Origin: Thermococcus cleftensis
GTDB taxonomy: Archaea; Methanobacteriota_B; Thermococci; Thermococcales; Thermococcaceae
Direction of reading: 5' to 3'
Length of the DNA: 64,000 bases
NCBI RefSeq assembly: GCF_000265525.1
Contig: NC_018015.1
Coordinates: forward strand, 1,648,322-1,712,321
Shown in pieces: positions 1-10,542 of this stretch. A program made the translations under genes and the position numbers. The notes under the pieces are model-generated. The model saw only the letters and a program-made list of their open reading frames with translations. It did not search any database and was not told the DNA's origin. Position 1 is the stretch's first letter; each line of letters begins with the position of its first letter.

Positions 1-310
1 TGACGGTCAGGGGACGGCTTGAGACGTTCCTCATTCCGATCCGGAGGAGGGCCTCGACGCCTTCGTTCAGCTCTGGAGGTGCTTCAAAGATGAAGCCCTC
101 ACGGAGAACCCTTCTGATGTCCTGCCTTCTTGGAGGCATCTTTACGGCCGGCGGCCGCTTGGGGGCGGTGCCTCCCTCGAGCAGGCGGATTATCGTGGGC
201 AGGAAGATGAACAGGGCCAGGACTAGTCCAAACTTGCCCAGGAAGTACACGAGGAATATGGAAATAAAAAGACGACGAACGAAATCCGCCTCCCGGGAGC
301 GTGGGTGCAT
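1..310 (-). CDS. Partial membrane protein, C-terminus outside window
   Basis: The frame is open from an ATG at 310 to the window edge (about 103 residues seen). The start overlaps the stop of the upstream gene as TAATG, and a GAGGAGGT ribosome binding site lies inside that gene's end, so the two are translationally coupled. Residues about 13-43 form one long hydrophobic stretch, enough for one or two membrane passes, followed by a Pro/Arg-rich linker and a soluble part. The last visible residues (a glutamate-rich helix, then VSSRPLTV) suggest a beta-rich domain starting. I do not recognise the family. Coupling to an exported beta-propeller protein suggests a shared cell-surface role, which is inference. 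Confidence 0.7.
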   Translation of the reverse strand, partial: MHPRSREADFVRRLFISIFLVYFLGKFGLVLALFIFLPTIIRLLEGGTAPKRPPAVKMPPRRQDIRRVLREGFIFEAPPELNEGVEALLRIGMRNVSSRPLTV

Positions 311-2385
311 TACCTCCTCACCCTCCGGTGGAGCAGTGCCGGAAGCAGTGCGGGAATAGCGAAGAGCCCTGGCCCGCAGATGCCACCGCCGCCCTCCTTG
401 GTCTGCGTCTCGGTCTCAACATCGCCGAAGTTGCCCATTTCAAACTCCTTCAGCTTCTCCTCGCTCAGTCCTCCGGTTCTTGCCTGGGCCAGTATCTCGC
501 TGAGTGCCTTCTCCCCGTTCTTGCCCACGTTTTCCAGTGCAGCCCTTGCATTCTCCGCCAGCTCCTTCGCACCCTTCACGTCACCGTCCTTGAACTTCCC
601 GGCCGAGTCGAGGAGTGGATCAACGTAGTTCCAGAGGCGGACGTCCTTCCTCCAGTACTCGTCCACGACCGCCGCGGCTCCATCAGCCGCATCGAACAGC
701 TCCTTCTGCTCTCCTTCCAGCTTTCCGCTCATGGACACCGCCTTTCCGAGGGCGTCCTCCAAGTTCCCAGATTTGTAGCTCTCCTCAACGGGGCTTACGT
801 CGATGCCCCCTTTCGACAGTATGGCCGTATCATACTGGACCCAGAACTCCCTGAATGCGGTTATCCACGCCTCAAGAGCCTTATCCCTCGCGGCCGCGTA
901 GTTTCCGTTAAGGTATTCCTGCCTCGCCTTCTCAAGAATGGGCCCCGCGAGGTCCGCGCTGTATCCAAGCCCGTTCATCTTGTCAATCAGTTCCTCCGTT
1001 TTCTGAATGGCGTAGCTGGACACCTCGCGCAGGTAGCCCTCAGAGGGCTGGAAGTTGATCTCCTGGCCGCCGAGTCTGTATTTTTCCATCGATACCTGTG
1101 GGCTGGTGGTAGTGGTGGTGACCGTTCCGGTTGGGGTCTCTATCTCGGACCTCTTCTCCAGGGTCAGCGTCACCGTTTCGCTCTCTCCCAGATCCAGGGT
1201 AACGGTCGTTTCGTTCGAGTAGTAGCCCTCCATGCTCACCGTGATTTTGTATTTTCCTGGATTGATAGTCAGGCTGAGCGGCGACGTGCCCTTATAAACA
1301 CCGTTTATGTAAACCTCGGCCCCGCTTGGGTTGGTCTTCACCGTGAGGACCGCGTAGTTGAAGTTGAAGAAGCCGAGCTTTTCTCCCCCTGCGGCCAGGT
1401 AATCGGCCTTTTCCGTCCCGGCCACGGAGTTCGTGTTGCCAAGGTCGTAGAAGTTCACAGATGAGCCGTCCTTTATCGTCAGTACCTCTACTCCTTTATC
1501 GGTCGCGATTCCGACGTAGTGGAGCGTGACCGCCAGGTTCTTGGGGACACCTCTGGTCGCCTTTGACCATTCAACGTTTCCGTTCCTGTCCGCCAGGTAA
1601 ACCTTTCCGTCCGAGGTAAGGATCGCTATGTACTCCCCGTCCGGGGTGAACTCCAAGTCGATGACGTTTGGAACCGTCAGCTTATCGCGGAACGTCCCGT
1701 AGACGTCGAGTATCCAGACCCCGTCCTTTCCGCCGGCCGCTATCAGGGAGTTGTCCGGGCTTATTGCCAGGGCCTCGAAGTTCCTGTCGGCGCTGGAGTC
1801 GGCGTAGGGGTCGTACTTCCACCCTTCGGTTCCATCGGCCCGGTAGTAGATGACCTTGTCCCCCGCTACGACTATTGCTTTGTCCGCGAATCCAACCGAG
1901 TAGCCGACCTCTGCCGCCATGGCAACCCCGCCTGTGGTCTGGGTTTCGGGAAAGCGCAGGAACGTCAGCTTTCCGGTGTATCTGTAGGCCTCAACGCTGA
2001 AGAGCGTCCCCACGACGAACCTGTCCCCCGAAGCGGCCAGGCTCTCTATCTTCCCCTTCGTGTCAGTGCTCCAGAGGAACTCTCCGCTGGAGGCGTTTAT
2101 CACGTAGACGTCCTTCTCTCCTGCCCCCACCACGTACTTCATGTCCGGCGAAACCGCGAGGAGTTTGATGGCCTCAGGCAGTTCCGTGTGCCACACCTCG
2201 GTTCCGTTCCGGTCGAAGAGGTACACCCCATCTTCCACCCCTGCGAATATCGCCCTCCCGTCCGGGGATATGCACACCGAGTAAACTCCGATGCCCTTCG
2301 TCCAGGTGGGTGCAGCTGCAGTTGCTAGGGGGGACAGAAGGGCAAGTATCATGCCCAGGGCCACGATAAATCCTGCGTGCCTCAT
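310..2385 (-). CDS. Secreted beta-propeller/PEGA protein with CGP-CTERM anchor
   Basis: 691 residues. The start is ATG 2385 because it follows GGTGAT and opens directly into a signal peptide (MRHAGFIVALGMILALL, Ala-rich cleavage region); a longer upstream extension lacks these. Residues about 25-340 carry repeated blade-like motifs (ISPDG, WSTDTKGKIESLA, LYADRNGNVEW-like), as in PQQ/WD40-type propellers. A PEGA domain follows at about 345-410 (NPSGAEVYINGVYKGTSP). Then come a Thr-rich linker and a helical region. The protein ends with a Gly run, ICGPG, a hydrophobic stretch and HRRVRR. This is the CGP-CTERM signal, known in Thermococci as a processing and membrane-anchoring tail. Ligand unknown. 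Likely displayed on the outer cell surface. Confidence 0.85.
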   Translation of the reverse strand: MRHAGFIVALGMILALLSPLATAAAPTWTKGIGVYSVCISPDGRAIFAGVEDGVYLFDRNGTEVWHTELPEAIKLLAVSPDMKYVVGAGEKDVYVINASSGEFLWSTDTKGKIESLAASGDRFVVGTLFSVEAYRYTGKLTFLRFPETQTTGGVAMAAEVGYSVGFADKAIVVAGDKVIYYRADGTEGWKYDPYADSSADRNFEALAISPDNSLIAAGGKDGVWILDVYGTFRDKLTVPNVIDLEFTPDGEYIAILTSDGKVYLADRNGNVEWSKATRGVPKNLAVTLHYVGIATDKGVEVLTIKDGSSVNFYDLGNTNSVAGTEKADYLAAGGEKLGFFNFNYAVLTVKTNPSGAEVYINGVYKGTSPLSLTINPGKYKITVSMEGYYSNETTVTLDLGESETVTLTLEKRSEIETPTGTVTTTTTSPQVSMEKYRLGGQEINFQPSEGYLREVSSYAIQKTEELIDKMNGLGYSADLAGPILEKARQEYLNGNYAAARDKALEAWITAFREFWVQYDTAILSKGGIDVSPVEESYKSGNLEDALGKAVSMSGKLEGEQKELFDAADGAAAVVDEYWRKDVRLWNYVDPLLDSAGKFKDGDVKGAKELAENARAALENVGKNGEKALSEILAQARTGGLSEEKLKEFEMGNFGDVETETQTKEGGGGICGPGLFAIPALLPALLHRRVRR

Positions 2386-2399
2386 TGTTATCACCAGCT

Positions 2400-2411
2400 C
2401 TATCGGCTCAT
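2400..2411 (-). promoter_or_regulatory. Three-codon mini-ORF in leader of the propeller gene
   Basis: On the minus strand a strong GGAGGTG ribosome binding site is followed by ATG AGC CGA TAG, which ends 14 bases before the ATG of the propeller gene. The main gene has its own GGTGAT site starting just after the mini-ORF stop. It may be chance, or a translational coupling device. Confidence 0.3.
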
Positions 2412-2460
2412 ATCGACACCTCCGCTGATTATATCCAGGGTTGGCTGATTTGACGTTTTT

Positions 2461-2478
2461 AATCAAAAAACGCAAAAA
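2461..2478 (-). terminator. T-rich terminator after the coiled-coil operon
   Basis: Directly after the stop of the 2479 gene the minus strand reads two T-runs (TTTTTGCGTTTTTT) without a hairpin, the usual form of archaeal intrinsic termination. It separates the operon from the propeller gene, which has TATA-like ATTAAAAAC and GATATAATC sequences just downstream. Confidence 0.5.
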
Positions 2479-3093
2479 TCAAAGCTCTTCCAGCCAGTCC
2501 TCCTTCCTCTTTGTCCTCTCTTCACCGGTCACCTTCTCGGCGGCAGCGTCAGGCTCCAGCTCGCCCTCCTTTACAGCATGTATCGTCCTCATTATCTCCG
2601 CCAGCTCCTCGTCCTCCTCGAACTCAACGCCGGTCCCGATGGTCTGGTCGGTCATTCCGAGCATTCTGTTGAGGTTCTCGTTGAAGTTCTGGGCGTCGAG
2701 CTGCATCTCGGTAAGGTGGCTTTCGAGCTCCTCGGGCGACATTCTCTTCAACAGGTCCCAGGTGGGTGTGCCCCTGAGTATGCTCTCGTTCTCCTTGATT
2801 ATCACGAGGTTGCTGATGAGCATCAGCTGCTTGTTGAGGGCCATGTGGGTCTTCTGGAGGTTCTTCTTGCGCTGGTTGAGGGTCTTTATCTTCGTCGCTA
2901 TCGTCAGCTCCTCGCTCTTGGTTCTTGCCTTTTTGGCTTTTTCAAAGAGCCTCGCTATCTCCTGGTCTATCGAGGCTATCTCCTTCTCCACCTTCTCTAT
3001 CTGGTACTCCAGCTTGATCTGGCTCTCCCTGAGCTTTGGAAGGGGTATGTCAAGGGGGTTCTTCTTTCCAAAAAAGCGGGAGAGGACGCTCAT
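2479..3093 (-). CDS. ESCRT-III/Snf7-like coiled-coil protein A
   Basis: 204 residues. The N-terminus is short and basic (MSVLSRFFGKKNP). Two long charged helices fill residues about 20-100 (KLEYQIEKVEKEI, TKIKTLNQRKKNLQKT), then comes a SPEELE-LTEMQLDAQNFNE segment, and the C-terminus is acidic (EFEEDEELAEIMRTI). This order, the net charge switch and the size match ESCRT-III/CHMP proteins, which polymerise on membranes, but I see this only by eye. It overlaps its upstream paralogue by 4 bases, so the two are co-translated and probably form a heteropolymer pair. There is no MIM-like C-terminal motif I can be sure of and no Vps4-type ATPase nearby. It could instead be a generic coiled-coil protein. 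Confidence 0.6.
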   Translation of the reverse strand: MSVLSRFFGKKNPLDIPLPKLRESQIKLEYQIEKVEKEIASIDQEIARLFEKAKKARTKSEELTIATKIKTLNQRKKNLQKTHMALNKQLMLISNLVIIKENESILRGTPTWDLLKRMSPEELESHLTEMQLDAQNFNENLNRMLGMTDQTIGTGVEFEEDEELAEIMRTIHAVKEGELEPDAAAEKVTGEERTKRKEDWLEEL

Positions 3094-3689
3094 AGCTCCT
3101 CGTCCTCCTCGAGCCTGCGGTCTATGGAGACGACCTTCTCGGCGACGTCCTCAACGTCAGCCTCTCCTGCCTCGACCTGGCTCCAGGCCTTCATGAGCTC
3201 CCGCTCGGTCTGGTCCTCGGTCTCCTCGAACTCCGCAACCTCCATCTCGAAGACCCTGTTGAGGCTGTCCACCATCTCGTCGAACTCCTTGCCGTCGAGG
3301 TTTATCTTTATCAGCGCCTGCTCCAGCTCCTCCGGCTCGACGCTGTTGAGCTTCTCCCAGACCCCGGTCTTCCTCAGCTCCTTCTCGTATTTCTTCACGA
3401 TTATCAGATTCTTTATGAGGGTGTACTGCTTCTGGGCAGTGGTGAAGTCCTTGAGCTTGAGCTTCTGCTCCATGTCGAGGCTCTTGATTTCCTGGGCGAG
3501 CATCTTCTTCTTGAGCTTGTCAGCTCCGATTCCCTCCTGGAAGAGCTGCTTCTTCCTCTTTTCAATCTGGTTGATGTCCTTCTTGAGCCTCTCGAGCCTG
3601 TTCCTCAGCCTTATCTCCTCGGCCTGAAGCTCCCTCAGCGAGAGCTTTTCGATGGTGTTCTTCCTTCCAAACATATCACGTATTTTCAT
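3090..3689 (-). CDS. ESCRT-III/Snf7-like coiled-coil protein B
   Basis: 199 residues, paralogous to the next gene: the same start pattern (MKIRDMFGRKNT), the same basic helical hairpin (residues about 18-100), the same 'LIKNLIIVKKYEKELRKTG' segment matching 'LISNLVIIKENESILRGTP' in the partner, a SVEPEELEQAL/EPEELE segment, and an acidic tail ending in LEEDEEL. A GGGAGGTG ribosome binding site precedes ATG 3689. It sits third in a four-gene operon and shares an ATGA overlap with protein A. The tandem paralogue arrangement recalls CHMP-type subunits that co-assemble. Function on membranes or DNA is inference; some genomes label such proteins simply as coiled-coil or chromosome-assembly proteins. 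Confidence 0.6.
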   Translation of the reverse strand: MKIRDMFGRKNTIEKLSLRELQAEEIRLRNRLERLKKDINQIEKRKKQLFQEGIGADKLKKKMLAQEIKSLDMEQKLKLKDFTTAQKQYTLIKNLIIVKKYEKELRKTGVWEKLNSVEPEELEQALIKINLDGKEFDEMVDSLNRVFEMEVAEFEETEDQTERELMKAWSQVEAGEADVEDVAEKVVSIDRRLEEDEEL

Positions 3690-3731
3690 TTTTTCACACC
3701 TCCCACGGGAAGGAAAGATGAAACCGTCAAA

Positions 3732-5579
3732 TCAGAGGAACCCCTCCTTGACGAGGACGTAGCCGACGCCCTCGACGAACTTGGTTATGTAGCCCTTCTC
3801 CTTTGACAGCTCGTGGAACGCCCTCTTCACGACCTCCTCGGCGAAGTGCTCCAGGGCCTCCTCCAGCCTCACGTAGCCCCTCATTATTATCTTCTCCTCC
3901 AGGAAGTCCTTGACCTTGGCGAGAAGCTCCTCGTCCCTCTCAAGGCGGAGCATCGGCTCGAAGGCTCTAGCATATTCGTCGTGCGGGTTGTATATCAGCT
4001 CGCCGCTCTCAAGGTCGAGCAGGGCTAAAGAGACGTTCTCGGATATGAAGTTCCTGTGGAAGTCGCCCGAATTGACGTAGTTTGCTATCCTCCTCTCGAA
4101 GCCCGTTGGGGAGGCAACGAGGAGGACGATGCGGCCGTTCTTGGCCTCATCACGGGCATCAACCAGGAGCGCGTTGATATCTGCCAGCTCGAGGGGGTCG
4201 GTGTCGAAGCCGACCTCGGCGTAGCGCTCGGACCTTCCATAGAAGAGCGCCTTTACGGTTATCTCCTCCTTCTTTCCGAGGAGCTTCTTCTCCTTGAGCC
4301 TGACCTCCACCAGTCTGTTGTCGGGGACGTTCTTGAGGTCCCTCTCGCTCAGCTTTCCTGCGTAGGCGCTCTTGTCGAAGGTCTTCCTCTCCTCGACGGA
4401 CTCCACCTTGAAGGTCCTGCCCAGGAGCTTCACCTCGTCCCTGAACTTGCTCCTTATCCTCCCGACGAAGTTCATCTCGAGCATTCTCGCCTCGTCGAGC
4501 CTGACGAAGCGCGAGCCCTTCTCGACCTTGCCGGCCAGGCTCATTACCTCCTTTATCCGCCTGGTCACCTCGTCCTCCTTTTCCTTCAGCTCAAGCTCCC
4601 TCTTCCTGAGTTCCATTTCCTTTTCCTTGAGCTCAAGCTCCTTCCTCCTTATCTCGGCCTCCATGGCTTCAATGCTAGCCATCATTTCCCTCTGCATTCT
4701 GTCGAGCTCTGCCTCGAGGGTTCTCCTTGCCTCCTCGTCCTTCATTCTGCTTATCTCCTCGATGAGCCTCTGCCTCTCCTCCTCGAACTGTCTTCTCATC
4801 TCCTCCTTCTCCTGAATGAGCCTCGATATCTCGGCTTCCTTCGCGGTTTCAAGCCTTCTCCTGAGCTCTTCTTTCTCCCTCTCGAAGTTCCTGCGCATAT
4901 CCTCCATCTGTCTCCTCAGCTCCTCCATCTCCCGCTCTTTAGCTTCTAGTCTTCTCTGGTACGTTCTCTCCACTGCCTGCGTCTCCTCTCCGGCCATCGT
5001 GAGGAAGTCCCTGAACCAGTCGAAGCGCATCGTCGCCTCGGCTATGGCCGCGTTTATCTTGCTCTTGTAGGAGTCCCACTTGGTCTTGAGGAACCCCCTC
5101 AGGGGAAGCTTTATCGAGGGGTCGTTGAGGGCATCGTCAATCCACCTGTCCACGCCGTGGTAGTACTCCCTGAGGAGGCCAAGGACGTTGTTATCCCTGT
5201 GCATTATCTTCTTCATTATGTCCTCCTTGGAGTATATCTCGAAGACGTTGTAGCGTAGAACCCTCTCGAGGGCCTCCAGCTCCCTGTCCCTGTACCTCCT
5301 GCTCGCCGGCAGGTAGGTTTCCCCGTTCTGCCTGAAGCTCCAGGCGAGTATGGCCAAAGCTCCCTCGAACTTGCCCCGGAAGTGCATGTCGAGGTCCTTC
5401 AGGAACTCGCCGCACTCCCCGTCGAGGTAGCGGTCGTAGTTCTCCTCTATCTGGAGCCAGAGCCTTTCCCTTCTGGAGAAGCTCTCCACGCCGATGTCGA
5501 GGCCCTCCTTCAGGACGCGCTCGGCAGGCTTCAAAAGCTCCTTAACACAGTCGGTTCGTCCTTCCTCAAATACCCCCAT
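3732..5579 (-). CDS. Long coiled-coil protein of the ESCRT-III-like operon
   Basis: 615 residues. ATG 5579 follows GGGTGGT and sits one base after the TGA of the upstream gene; an in-frame ATG 11 codons earlier would run into that gene. Three parts can be seen: an N-terminal alpha-helical domain (about 1-190) with no recognised motif, a very long Glu/Arg/Lys heptad coiled coil (about 195-340, repeated EMEELRRQ/EELRRRLE/KELELKEKE units), and a C-terminal mixed domain (about 350-615) containing a FYGRSERYAEVGFD-like strand region and a terminal winged-helix-like stretch ending YVLVKEGFL. No Walker motif is present, so it is not an SMC protein. It probably scaffolds or recruits the two small coiled-coil partners. 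Confidence 0.75.
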   Translation of the reverse strand: MGVFEEGRTDCVKELLKPAERVLKEGLDIGVESFSRRERLWLQIEENYDRYLDGECGEFLKDLDMHFRGKFEGALAILAWSFRQNGETYLPASRRYRDRELEALERVLRYNVFEIYSKEDIMKKIMHRDNNVLGLLREYYHGVDRWIDDALNDPSIKLPLRGFLKTKWDSYKSKINAAIAEATMRFDWFRDFLTMAGEETQAVERTYQRRLEAKEREMEELRRQMEDMRRNFEREKEELRRRLETAKEAEISRLIQEKEEMRRQFEEERQRLIEEISRMKDEEARRTLEAELDRMQREMMASIEAMEAEIRRKELELKEKEMELRKRELELKEKEDEVTRRIKEVMSLAGKVEKGSRFVRLDEARMLEMNFVGRIRSKFRDEVKLLGRTFKVESVEERKTFDKSAYAGKLSERDLKNVPDNRLVEVRLKEKKLLGKKEEITVKALFYGRSERYAEVGFDTDPLELADINALLVDARDEAKNGRIVLLVASPTGFERRIANYVNSGDFHRNFISENVSLALLDLESGELIYNPHDEYARAFEPMLRLERDEELLAKVKDFLEEKIIMRGYVRLEEALEHFAEEVVKRAFHELSKEKGYITKFVEGVGYVLVKEGFL

Positions 5580-5580
5580 C

Positions 5581-6096
5581 TCAACCACCCGCGAAGAGCT
5601 TAAGCTCTTCATCTATCCTTTCGGCGAGAAAATCAACGGCATCGCCGTAGCCTTCAATCTCCAGGGTTACCTTTGTCCTTCCGTTTCCTTCGATGGTGGC
5701 CCTTATGGTGGCCCTTCCCTTTCTGGTGTACACGCTGTAAACCTTCGCCTCGTTTTCTGAGTGGGAATAGCCGGCGTTCATCTTGGAGAGCAGGTAGTCG
5801 ATGAACCTCTCGACGACCTTCCTCTCCTCGCCGATGGTGTATTCAAGGGTCCTCCTCTTTGCCCTGACCCTGTTCTCGACCCTCTTTGCGCTGTACACCT
5901 CGACCTTCTCCTCGGCGTTGCCCTCAAGCCTCGAGAAAAGCTCCTCCAGGAACTCCTGGGGCTCGTCCGTTTCGATGTAGAAAACCACCCCTCTGGGCTT
6001 TTTCACGGTGGCTCGTGAGGACCATTTGTCCAGAAGATAGTCTATGCGCTTTCTCTCGGCATCGTTATCGTACGTGACGAAGATTATGTAGCCCAT
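5581..6096 (-). CDS. Uncharacterised protein, first gene of the coiled-coil operon
   Basis: 171 residues from ATG 6096; GTG 6105 is an alternative, and the GGTG between them fits either poorly. The N-terminal half (MGYIIFVTYDNDAERKRID, then a VVFYIETDEPQEF strand-helix) looks like a small alpha/beta domain. The second half alternates strands and helices (YTRKGRATIRATIEG, KVTLEIEGYGDAVDFLAE). It resembles a lipid- or ligand-binding SRPBCC-like or ferredoxin-like fold only vaguely, and I cannot name a family. The stop codon is one base before the next start, so it is co-translated with the long coiled-coil protein. Confidence 0.7.
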   Translation of the reverse strand: MGYIIFVTYDNDAERKRIDYLLDKWSSRATVKKPRGVVFYIETDEPQEFLEELFSRLEGNAEEKVEVYSAKRVENRVRAKRRTLEYTIGEERKVVERFIDYLLSKMNAGYSHSENEAKVYSVYTRKGRATIRATIEGNGRTKVTLEIEGYGDAVDFLAERIDEELKLFAGG

Positions 6097-6127
6097 ACGC
6101 ACCACTGCGATGGATTAGTCGTTCATC

Positions 6128-6136
6128 TTATTTAAA
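6128..6136 (-). promoter_or_regulatory. TATA box of the coiled-coil operon
   Basis: The minus strand reads TTTAAATAA about 30 bases before the GTG/ATG starts at 6105/6096, giving an almost leaderless transcript. It is the only good promoter upstream of the four genes. Confidence 0.55.
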
Positions 6137-6358
6137 GTTTTCTCCGATTTGGAGGATACTCTGTGCCTCTGTAATGCCCTTGACTGGATTTAGCTGGCTC
6201 ATTCATAACGAAGTTTTACCGTGTTTGGCGGACCGCTGGAACCTCCCGTGGTGATGTTGCGTTTCCCAGACGTTAGGGCGTTATGGAATAAATGGTTTTC
6301 GCCCCATGAAAAGTTCAACCGTTATCGTGTCCCAAAACAAATAAATACGTTCCGAGAG

Positions 6359-6366
6359 ATATAAAA
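6359..6366 (+). promoter_or_regulatory. TATA box of the pentapeptide channel gene
   Basis: ATATAAAA lies 43 bases before the ATG at 6409, giving an expected transcript start near 6385-6390. The rest of the 312-base divergent gap (6097-6408) holds no gene I can recognise. Confidence 0.5.
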
Positions 6367-6408
6367 CCGCCCTTCGCACTCCACCCACAGCTTTCCGGGC
6401 TGGTGTCC

Positions 6409-7542
6409 ATGAGGTGCGTCCACAGCTACCGCCACAACCCCATCAAGGAGTGCCCCCGAGAGGCGGCAGAGGATTCGGCATTCTGCCCGTTCCATGAGCC
6501 GGTTGGGGGAAAGGACTTTGAGAGGGCTGACCTCTCTGGCGAGGATCTGGAGGAGGCCTACCTCTCGGGCGCCAACCTGAGAAAGGCCAACCTCGAGGGG
6601 GGCAACCTCCGCCACGCCGACCTCAGCGATGCCGACCTCTCCCACGCCAACCTCGCCTGGGCACACCTGGAGGGCTCGGATCTAAGCGGCGCCAACCTCT
6701 CCCACGCCAGCCTGAGCAGTTCCCGCCTCGAGGGCGCTGACTTAAGCGGAGCGAAACTCATTCACGCCGACCTTTCCCTCGCGAGCCTTGAGAACGCCAC
6801 CCTTGCCAGCGCTGACCTCCAGGGTGCGGAGCTCTACGGGGCAAACCTGAGCGGGGCGAACCTCTTCAGCGCGGACTTCAGGGGTGCGAAACTCTACGGA
6901 GTCTCCTTAACCGGCGCCAAGAACCTGCGCTACGCGAGGTTCGACGAGATCGTCGTTGAGGAAGTCATCGGCGACCGGCTCGCTCGGCAGGGTAAGTATT
7001 CGGAAGCCCTCGAATCGTACAACCGGGCGATAGACGTCTACCTCCTCCTCAAGAAGCTCTTCGCGGAACAGGGAATATACGAGGCCGCGAGCAGGTACTC
7101 CATAGGCGAGTGGCGCGTTCGCGGGAAGATTCAAAGACTGGCCCACAAAGCCCTGGGACGGGCGCACGTCGAGGCGTTTCTTCCGCTTACGGCGAGGTTC
7201 AGGAAGAGGTGGCTGGCGTTTCTTGAGGGCCACCTCCGCTGGCTCGCCAACCGCTTTCTCTGGTACATCTCCAGCTACGGTGAGAGTCCCTGGCGGGTCT
7301 TCCTGACAACGGTGGGGGTTATACTCGCCTACGCCGCCCTTTACAGCCATCTCGGCGCGGTTGAGGGAGCGGGAAGCTTCGCGGAGAACCTCTACTTCAG
7401 CGTGGTCACCTTCACAACCGTCGGCTACGGCGACTACGTTCCAAAGCCCGGCTACCACCTCTTAGCCGTGAGTGAGGCCTTTCTTGGAGCGTTTATGATG
7501 GCCTTCTTTGTCGTCGTGCTGAGCAGGAGGGTGATAAGGTAA
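6409..7542 (+). CDS. Pentapeptide-repeat potassium-type channel
   Basis: 377 residues from ATG 6409 (GGTG seven bases upstream; GTG 6403 is in frame). Residues about 5-32 hold a Cys/His cluster (CVHSYRHNPIKEC, CPFHE) that may bind metal. About 38-175 are pentapeptide repeats (A-D/N-L-S-G pattern), which fold as a right-handed beta helix. A helical linker follows. Two membrane helices in the last 100 residues flank a pore loop with the filter TVGYGD, diagnostic of K+ channels of the Ion_trans_2 (2TM) class. The repeats are probably a cytoplasmic sensor or assembly domain. It converges with the kinase gene, 6 bases apart. Ion selectivity is inferred from the filter. Confidence 0.85.
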   Translation: MRCVHSYRHNPIKECPREAAEDSAFCPFHEPVGGKDFERADLSGEDLEEAYLSGANLRKANLEGGNLRHADLSDADLSHANLAWAHLEGSDLSGANLSHASLSSSRLEGADLSGAKLIHADLSLASLENATLASADLQGAELYGANLSGANLFSADFRGAKLYGVSLTGAKNLRYARFDEIVVEEVIGDRLARQGKYSEALESYNRAIDVYLLLKKLFAEQGIYEAASRYSIGEWRVRGKIQRLAHKALGRAHVEAFLPLTARFRKRWLAFLEGHLRWLANRFLWYISSYGESPWRVFLTTVGVILAYAALYSHLGAVEGAGSFAENLYFSVVTFTTVGYGDYVPKPGYHLLAVSEAFLGAFMMAFFVVVLSRRVIR

Positions 7543-7548
7543 AAGAAG

Positions 7549-10542
7549 TCAGACCTTTTCAAATCCCACCCTTATCTTGTGCACTATTATCTCGGCCTTC
7601 TCCACGAGTTCCTGCGGAATGTTGAGGTTTTCCTCAAGCCTGAACTTGACCTGCTCGGCAAGCTTTTGAACTTCTTCCTTAAGTTCGCCCTTAACGTAGA
7701 ATGCCAAATCGCTCGCGTACTTGTAGGCCTCTCCGGCGTTGTTGGTCTTCAGGTTGATGAGGAGAAGCTCCGTCAGGTAGTATTTTGCCCTCCCAACGTC
7801 GCCGAGGGTCTTGCTCTCCTTCAGGCTCTCCGAGTAAGTCATGTTCAGGACTCCTGCTAAATCACGCTGGAGCTCTTCGATGGACTGATAGCGCTCTTCC
7901 CTCCTCTTGGCGAGCATTCTCATGATTATCGGCTCTACCTCCTTTGCCGCCGGGTTCAACTGGCTCGGCGGAACGGGGTCGTCCTTCAGGATTCCCATCA
8001 TCACCTGGCTCAGCGTGCCTTCGAAGGGAAGTTTGCCGGTGACCAACTCGTAGAAGATAACGCCGAGCTGGTAGATGTCGGTTCTCTCGTCCGTGTGCCC
8101 GTACTTTTTATCAATCTGCTCCGGGGCGGCGTAGTATGGGGTGAAGCTTGCCGTGGTCGTCGCGCTCGTGCTCTCCTCTAAAACCTTGCTCAGCCCCCAG
8201 TCTGAGATCTTTGGTAAACCGTTCTTCAACAGAATGTTGCTCGGTTTTAAGTCCCTGTGGACAATCTTTTTTCCGTGAGCATACTTCAAAGCCTCGGCGA
8301 TGTTGAAGACGATTAAGGCGGCCTCATCAACCGGCAGGGGCTTCTGGAGTCTCGCGAGTGAGCTCTCGCAGTACTCCATTTCAAGGTATGGAACGGGAAG
8401 GACGTTCACGTCGTAGAGTTCGACGATGTTCGGGTGCTTGAGGTGCAGCCAGTTGGTAATTTCTCTTACAAAAGCCCTGCCAACTGCCGGATCAAGAGTC
8501 TTCGGGATTTTAACGGCCACGATTTTGCCGTCCTTTCTCTTCGCCTTGTAAACCCTCGCGAAACCGCCCTCGCCGATGTACTGGAAGTCCGAGTAGAACT
8601 CTTGGAGAGCCTCAGCTGGGTTGAGGATTGGGGTTCTCCCAAGGGCCGAGGGGGTCACCGCTGCCGCGCCCATCTTGGCCGTCTTAGTGACCTTGACTGG
8701 CACGGTCTTCGTGAAGGAGCCTTTGTCGGAGTTTACGTTGATGATGAAGTCGAAGTCGCCAATGAACTTGGGCTTCACGGTGATGCTATCGCCTATCGTC
8801 CTGCTGGGCTTGACGCGTGGGAAGTTCACCTTCTCCTCGCTCAGCTCGAAGTAGTCGGAGTTTTCGCTCAGGTCGACGGTAAGGGAGATGCCCTCAGAAA
8901 AGCGGTTGGTGACGAGTATGGAAACTCGCTCTCGGCCTTGTGGGGCATCTCGGTTGGAACGTCGAGCTTGAGACTCTCCTTCAGAAGTTCGAGCCTCTGC
9001 TTCTCCTCCGTGAGCTTAATCTTTTCTTCAATCTTTGAAGTGTCGGTGTTCAATGCCCTTGCAATGCTTAACGCCTCACTGTAAAGCCTGAGCGCTTCAG
9101 TGTAATTGCCGCCTTCAAAAGCCGAGTCCCCTTTGGCGATGAGATTCTCCATTCTCATTTTAAGGGAGTCGAGCTTCTCCTCTAATTTTCCCTCAACGTT
9201 GATGGATTTGGCAATGGTGAAAGCTTCATTAAGAACTCTTACTGCCTCGCTGTATTCTCTCCTCTCCATCAACTCGTCGGCTTTTGCAAGAAGCTCATTA
9301 AGCCTTGAAGCCTGCGTCTCTCTGTTCTCCAAAGCTTTAGCACGCTCGATTTTCTCTTTTACAATTTTAGATTTCCCAAGAACCTCGGCCAACAGTAATG
9401 CGGATTCGTAAGTTTTGATGGCCTCATCGAACTTCTTCTCGGAGAGTAGTTCATCGCCTTTGGACATGATGGCGGCAAGCTCACCCTCGGCTTCCTCCAG
9501 GATTTTTTGAGCTTTCTCTCCGATTCCTTTGATATCCCCGGCGAGCTCAAGTGCTTTCCTTGCATTTTCAGCGGCTTTCTCACGAGGGGCGTTTTCGGAC
9601 TGTCTTAATAATCTCAGTGCTCTCTTGATATCAAAGATTTTTTATTGAGTGCCCTAACCTCTGGAAGACGATTCAGAGCCAGAGCCAGTTCATTAAGCTT
9701 GACGAGGGCACTTGATGCTTTGTCTAGTTCAAGCCTGCTAACGAGGTTTTCAATCCGCTTAACCTCTTCTGTAAAGTATTTCCCAATCTCTATGATTTTT
9801 CCTCAGCGAGGGCAGCTTTTTTGGATGATCTACTTTTAGGGCTAAATTATAGGCCTCCCTATATTTGGCCAGTGCATTCAAATAATTCCTCCTCTTCAAA
9901 GCGTTCTCGGCCTCATCGAGTAAGGAGTCAACTTTAATTCCATCTCCAAGTTTTCTGATCTCAGTATCATTGCCCAAAGTCTCGGCCAGTGGAAGAAGTC
10001 TGTCGAGCTCGTCAATGGCTTTTAGGTACCATCCTCTACTTGCGAGTCCCTTGGCCTCAGAAAACATCGCCATTTGGAGCAATGGCAATCGAGTTAGCAT
10101 AATCATTTTTGCTTCCGCCATATGTTTTCTGCCAATTCACATTACCATTCTCATCCAAACGAAGGACCCAGACATTAGCTTCAGAACCAAATAAATCTCT
10201 AGCTCCATAGTAGCCTGCCACTATAATATCTCCATTCAAAGCAATAGCAACTGAGGTAGCTATATCATAGTCAGAGCCGCTGTAAGTTTTCTGCCATTTC
10301 ACGTTCCCATTCTTATCCAACCTGAAAACCCAAACGTCCTTTTTGCCAGCGCTGAAGCTTTTAGTGATGCCTGCGACTATAATATCACCATTATCTGCAA
10401 CAACAACCGCGTAAGCCACATCATCACCGCTCCCGCCGTAACTCTTAACCCACAACGGCCCGGGGCTTTCCTCCGCTTTGGCCAGGGGTAAAATCATTGC
10501 GAGAATCAGGAGCGCGATTAGGAACACCGATGCCCTCTTCAT
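7549..10542 (-). pseudogene. Broken beta-propeller/TPR-like/Ser-Thr kinase gene
   Basis: Reading from ATG 10542 (GGTGGT site): signal peptide (MKRASVFLIALLILAM), then propeller-type repeats (SGSDYDIATSVAIALNGDIIV). These stop abruptly at GDVF near 10056, and an alpha-helical TPR-like region continues in another frame (AKGLASRGWYLKAIDEL). Three A-runs (9817-9822, 9796-9800, 9638-9643 as T on plus) each lack one base. The frame then stays open through helical repeats to about 8930, where one more base is missing, and continues into a beta domain and a Hanks-type kinase (7549-8829): GEGGFARVYK, VAVKIPK, HRDLKPSN, DWG instead of DFG, and APE. The kinase motifs are intact. It is either a decaying receptor-like kinase gene or an intact gene with base-calling errors; the propeller truncation is not explained by single bases. 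Confidence 0.75.

Follow-up and report, generated by a model that had tools for sequence, protein, structure and literature searches.

Two small paralogous proteins, P1 and P2, encoded side by side in a 64,000-nucleotide stretch of the Thermococcus cleftensis chromosome (NC_018015.1; the whole stretch is called the window below), are very probably subunits of the endosomal sorting complex required for transport III (ESCRT-III) that work with a neighbouring Vps4-type ATPase, Vps4b. Their genes belong to a compact four-gene unit on the minus strand at 2479-6096, in the order AB-CC-P2-P1. An earlier note on this DNA had proposed an ESCRT-III-like identity for the pair, and that proposal is now supported by the helix layout of P1, its ranking in structural comparisons, the co-occurrence and synteny with Vps4, the charge polarity of both paralogues and a gene neighbourhood of a published type.

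The four open reading frames that the earlier note had described are all present on the minus strand: AB, a 171-residue alpha/beta protein (5581..6096, with its ATG at 6096), CC, a 615-residue coiled-coil protein (3732..5579), and the two ESCRT-III-like subunits, P2 with 199 residues (3090..3689) and P1 with 204 residues (2479..3093). The stop codon of P2 and the start codon of P1 overlap in the sequence ATGA, as had been claimed, and the AB-CC pair is also tightly coupled. That P1 and P2 are paralogues is confirmed by 34% identity over 193 columns (E 4e-25) and by a profile-profile probability of 98.9%. Both have the basic N-terminus and acidic C-terminus that had been noticed; the charges of the N-terminal and C-terminal halves are +9 and -15 in P1, and +14 and -21 in P2. 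A TATA-like element (CTTTAAATA, 6129..6137, minus strand), identified by its match to the consensus only, lies 33-41 nucleotides 5' of the AB start codon; it is the sole exact match in the window, where 0.26 would be expected. Directly 3' of the P1 stop codon there is a T-rich tract of the form T5...T6 (TTTTTGCGTTTTTTG, 2464..2478, minus strand), which resembles a terminator by its sequence. The two elements are consistent with a single transcript of four genes. An Rfam scan of window positions 1-10000 gave no matches, and NCBIfam gave no informative name for P1, P2, CC, or AB.

Which fold do these proteins adopt? P1 was modelled with AlphaFold from the P1/P2 alignment of 27 sequences, which includes Methanothermococcus and Archaeoglobales (mean predicted local distance difference test score, pLDDT, 75.5; predicted TM-score 0.58). 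The predicted helices are alpha0 (residues 3-8), alpha1 (18-54, 37 residues), and alpha2/3 (59-106, about 48 residues), beyond which the model has several short helices from 110 to 203; pLDDT is mostly 89-97 in the hairpin blocks and low in the C-terminal part. The model shows the helix layout of the Snf7 domain, namely alpha0, an alpha1-alpha2 hairpin, and further helices. As predicted, this layout rules out a simple antiparallel coiled coil, one of two findings that the earlier note had named as telling against its proposal. When the P1 model was compared with the Protein Data Bank (PDB) by Foldseek, ESCRT-III proteins made up 13 of the best 16 matches; CdvB2 filaments came first (9s98), and CdvB (9s9k), CHMP2A-CHMP3, and CHMP3 were among the best. 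As a rough control, the model of CC, folded likewise, retrieved axonemal coiled coils.

The same comparison also placed PspA filaments at ranks 20 and 35, and ESCRT-III and PspA are described as one superfamily (PMC10936438). P1 and P2 have the helical hairpin in common with PspA/Vipp1. P1 and P2 might accordingly be membrane-repair proteins of the PspA/Vipp1 type, the bacterial branch of this superfamily, which would act independently of Vps4. We regard this as highly improbable, given that ESCRT-III chains rank above PspA and that P1 and P2 are strictly coupled to a Vps4-type ATPase. Alpha1 of PspA/Vipp1 proteins is long, at about 60 residues; in P1 it has 37 residues, fewer than in PspA and near the number usual for CHMP proteins.

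The case for ESCRT-III is strengthened by the distribution of the genes. In a sample of 94 Thermococcales genomes, P1 orthologues (66-95% identical) are found in 39, and P2 orthologues in 38 of these 39. All 36 of the loci that were compared keep the order and strand of AB-CC-P2-P1; a contig end truncates one of them. Since orthologues are widespread and gene order is kept, the P1 and P2 genes are real and have not been called by chance, and the earlier note's grouping of the pair with the 615-residue coiled-coil protein and the small alpha/beta protein holds in these loci. Vps4b, counted at E < 1e-190, co-occurs with P1: 36 genomes have both, three P1 alone, two Vps4b alone, and 53 neither (Fisher p 4.7e-20, uncorrected for shared ancestry). 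Among the five exceptions, four genomes are either incomplete or in fragments. The remaining one (G019), the sole discordant genome that is near-complete and unfragmented, has a rearranged locus and is also the one P1 genome in which P2 was not found. Here P1 is part of a natural fusion protein of 641 residues (L080:9397-11322) with a region that by eye resembles the N-terminal domain of CC; P2, Vps4b, and kinases were not seen within the surrounding 19 kb. In Methanothermococcus and the Archaeoglobales the order is AB-CC-P2-P1-Vps4, with P1 directly before vps4, and one relative lineage has the compact order AB-CC-P2-P1-kinase-Vps4-PP2C-Snf7-like. A Thermococcales-like ESCRT locus (L113) is also filed under an Archaeoglobus metagenome-assembled genome; its Vps4 is sister to that of a Thermococcales genome (G089), and the locus is probably a binning error or a recent transfer.

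The Snf7-like gene at the end of this compact order is found in 30 genomes, every one of which also has P1. By contrast, three near-complete genomes (G017, G042, and G072) carry P1/P2 and Vps4b and no Snf7-like gene; thus, P1 and P2 are the only visible ESCRT-III candidates, and the only visible substrates, in these genomes. This bears on the alternative that P1 and P2 are plain coiled-coil adaptors of a kinase pathway that form no polymers on membranes, and that the ATPase has another substrate. Such a role would suit the weak sequence profiles, the non-significant Foldseek E-values, and a neighbourhood dominated by kinases. However, it has only a small chance of being correct in view of the three genomes without a Snf7-like gene, the conserved charge polarity, and a P1 model with more helices than a simple hairpin.

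The main weakness of an ESCRT-III assignment, according to the earlier note, was the lack of a Vps4 ATPase nearby. This is true inside the window only: the same-strand gene array, read 20 kb to the left of the window, contains two Vps4-type genes. Downstream of P1, and on its strand, the array encodes first a PEGA/beta-propeller protein, then two Ser/Thr kinases, Vps4b, another kinase, and a PP2C phosphatase; this first PP2C gene precedes more genes of the PEGA, kinase, and PP2C kinds, after which come those for the Snf7-like, Vps4a, SPFH, and NfeD-like proteins. Vps4b (402 residues, L084:15395-16603, same strand as P1) is encoded some 4 kb to the left of the window and about 6 kb downstream of P1. 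It matches the Pfam families AAA (E 3e-40) and Vps4_C (E 5.9e-8, above the cut-off). Vps4a also exceeds the cut-off for Vps4_C, and all 18 aligned Vps4 members match.

Several observations weigh against the reading of P1 and P2 as ESCRT-III subunits. In the Foldseek comparison all E-values were above 0.1 and the TM-scores of the ESCRT-III matches were 0.23-0.58, so the structural ranking is suggestive and not proof. The Snf7 profile PF03357 matches P1 of the window at E 0.058 (profile positions 4-155 of 171), below the curated cut-off, and does not match P2 of the window; the best E-value in the aligned P1/P2 set is 2.3e-4, and every match is below the cut-off. Searches of PDB sequences with the P1, P2, and Snf7-like profiles found no solved ESCRT-III protein above background, the best being CdvB (9s9j) at E 0.94. 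No clear MIT-interacting motifs (MIM) are seen in P1 and P2 of Thermococcus. The N-terminus of the neighbouring ATPases is a conserved region of about 70 residues in which MIT is not recognised by profile (best E 0.28), and which retrieved no solved MIT domain. In the genome of the window three genes and a likely terminator lie between P1 and the Vps4b gene, and membrane binding and polymerisation of P1 and P2 are predictions only.

How much do the weak profile matches mean? PF03357 also stays below its cut-off in Sulfolobus acidocaldarius and is therefore insensitive to archaeal members. In two orthologues it covers the domain (profile positions 4-152 and 1-157 of 171), and the C-termini of P1 and P2 from Methanothermococcus have MIM1-like motifs by eye. 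Compared profile to profile, P1/P2 and the Snf7-like family match weakly (14-32% probability, from shallow alignments). The second finding named in the earlier note as telling against ESCRT-III, a lack of profile matches above background, almost holds for the copies in the window. Because these matches are near background, the case for ESCRT-III draws on the fold ranking, on synteny, and on co-occurrence, and not on profiles.

The other two products of the unit fit a published system. AlphaFold predicts for CC (mean pLDDT 81) an N-terminal helical domain (9-185), a long coiled coil (187-354), an alpha/beta domain (382-545), and a C-terminal winged helix (549-610) of the order alpha-beta-alpha-alpha-beta-beta, which Foldseek aligned with a Zalpha winged-helix domain over 65 columns (TM-score 0.63 by target; root-mean-square deviation 2.7). 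A domain order that includes a C-terminal winged helix has been published for arCOG09748 of Palaeococcus pacificus (PMC10936438), and the predicted order in CC matches it, by description. AB is the conserved first gene in 36/36 loci, and is also found in Archaeoglobales and Methanothermococcus. It has no Pfam match above the cut-off; its gene position and size, set beside the account in PMC10936438, make it likely to be arCOG08177 (Cas2-like with DUF3568/helix-grip).

With these partners, the locus fits the 'Main' type of archaeal ESCRT system, with arCOG numbers matched by description. As described by Makarova et al. (2024, mBio; PMC10936438), the 'Main' clade includes Thermococcales and combines Vps4, ESCRT-III, arCOG09748, arCOG08177, Ser/Thr kinases, and phosphatases; the Thermococcus locus has Vps4, ESCRT-III, an arCOG09748-like CC, an arCOG08177-like AB, Ser/Thr kinases, and PP2C. 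The available text of that paper does not treat the two paralogues, P1 and P2, separately, and the Thermococcus locus has in addition a linked second module of Snf7-like protein, Vps4, SPFH, and NfeD. The CdvB/CdvB1/CdvB2-CdvC systems of the TACK archaea share the ESCRT-III-like helix layout, with CdvB2 and CdvB as the best structural matches, and a Vps4-type ATPase. In contrast to these, the winged helix of Thermococcus sits on a separate protein, CC, and kinase and phosphatase genes are added; CdvA was not seen in the neighbourhood examined, in which no search aimed at CdvA was made. P1 and P2 resemble eukaryotic CHMP/Snf7 proteins in size, charge polarity, and helix order, and CHMP3 and CHMP2A-CHMP3 are among the structural matches. 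They differ in scoring below the PF03357 cut-off and in their unclear MIM motifs, and no ubiquitin-linked ESCRT-0, ESCRT-I, or ESCRT-II genes were recognised near the Thermococcus locus.

The second module is encoded some 17 kb to the left of the window (L084:208-3391; G000:C1:1628607-1631790). It encodes a 188-residue Snf7-like protein (PF03357 E 0.0077, below the cut-off), followed directly by the 380-residue Vps4a, an SPFH protein (Band_7 E 5.8e-47), and a small membrane protein named NfeD-like by eye. An SPFH-NfeD pair is also found near Vps4a in four other genomes (G022, G029, G033, and G044). Next downstream of P1, the gene at 310..2385 (minus strand, probable start 2385) encodes a secreted or membrane protein with PEGA (E 4.6e-18) and a beta-propeller; the gene recurs in these loci, and its product is a possible sensor partner. 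A Ser/Thr kinase of 426 residues (7549..8829, minus strand; Pkinase E 2.2e-49) is one of several in the array. Within the kinase, PP2C, and PEGA/beta-propeller genes of the same strand at L084:5983-13942, a 909-residue member has a C-terminal PP2C domain. At 6403-7542 a pentapeptide-repeat protein is fused to an ion-channel domain and encoded divergently from AB; its relatives recur near these loci. The ESCRT cassette of one Thermococcales lineage is bordered by genes for heavy-metal-type P-type ATPases and DUF302 proteins (L074:14381-16522 and L075:13725-15803).

How might the system work? By analogy with known ESCRT systems, P1 and P2 would be soluble, in a closed state maintained by the acidic C-terminal halves. 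Once activated, they would bind the cytoplasmic membrane with a short, amphipathic alpha0 and with the basic hairpin of alpha1 and alpha2, and would co-polymerise into a filament. CC, perhaps together with AB, could serve as an ESCRT-II-like nucleator by means of its winged helix, and Vps4b would remodel or disassemble the filament. The timing or the cargo may be set by PP2C phosphatases and by Ser/Thr kinases that carry sensor domains (PEGA, beta-propeller, and TPR). The output would be a regulated outward remodelling of the membrane, either to bud vesicles or to sort phosphorylated cargo, and not primarily cell division; this output is the part of the scheme that we hold with least certainty, at somewhat less than even chances. 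The gene set and its order, the co-occurrence, the predicted folds, and the charge polarity are observations, whereas polymerisation, Vps4 action, control by phosphorylation, and the output are extrapolated from ESCRT biology.

Two other outputs have been considered. ESCRT systems of TACK archaea divide cells (PMC5840170 and PMC10936438), and a genuine ESCRT-III in Thermococcus could have division as its main job, alongside FtsZ or in its place. However, over half of the genomes lack the system, among them T. kodakarensis and all of one genus (g3), and FtsZ is held to be the division protein of euryarchaea, which makes a primary role in division quite unlikely. The suggestion in the earlier note that the role would be something other than division is therefore reasonable. 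Its patchy distribution and sensor kinases might instead suggest a module for defence against viruses or for stress, in which damaged membrane is sealed or expelled. We consider the chances of this very slim: PADLOC gave only generic kinase, AAA, and PP2C models, with weak coiled-coil matches for P1, P2, and CC, and no mobile-element or defence genes were noticed around the conserved loci, which were not searched for them systematically.

The survey also has consequences for the model species of the order. One of the genomes (G023) is presumably that of T. kodakarensis KOD1, its Rubisco being identical to PDB 1geh, which we take to be the KOD1 enzyme. In this genome the survey found none of P1, P2, Vps4a, Vps4b, and Snf7-like, and only a solo Vps4 (L128:5824-6930). 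This gene, like its counterparts at L129:5788-6882 and L131:5580-6665, adjoins a seryl-tRNA synthetase-like gene. Solo Vps4 genes in Thermococcales have been described (PMC10936438); they likewise encode a Vps4-type ATPase, but have no ESCRT genes beside them. A tree built from 35 Vps4-type proteins, with Cdc48 as the outgroup, places the Vps4b sequences with the Methanothermococcus and Archaeoglobales copies and unites Vps4a and solo Vps4 in a group of their own (support 85/100, on long branches and not decisive). Because of this grouping, solo Vps4 may descend from the second module as a relic. A broader but doubtful scenario is that a kinase-gated ESCRT machine of two modules (P1/P2 with Vps4b, and Snf7-like with Vps4a, SPFH, and NfeD) buds vesicles or nanotubes in many Thermococcus, and that genus g3 and T. 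kodakarensis have lost the second module, with their solo Vps4 as its remnant.

This type of system has already been predicted in the literature (PMC10936438), and the Thermococcus locus is a further member of it; the novelty is therefore limited. Apparently new are the explicit analysis of P1 and P2, the second module, the fusion of P1 with a CC-like region, and the absence of the system from T. kodakarensis. According to two reviews of archaeal vesicles, ESCRT-III is missing from Thermococcales (PMC6524685 and PMC10117752), and one of the two cites unpublished disruptions of T. kodakarensis Vps4 that had no effect on vesicles (PMC10117752). As T. kodakarensis does not have the P1/P2 system, these disruptions are no test of it. 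Contrary to the reviews, about 40% of the sampled Thermococcales genomes carry the system. Thus, the use of ESCRT by archaea that divide with FtsZ, and a role of the system in vesicle formation, would be testable by gene removal in a species that carries it.
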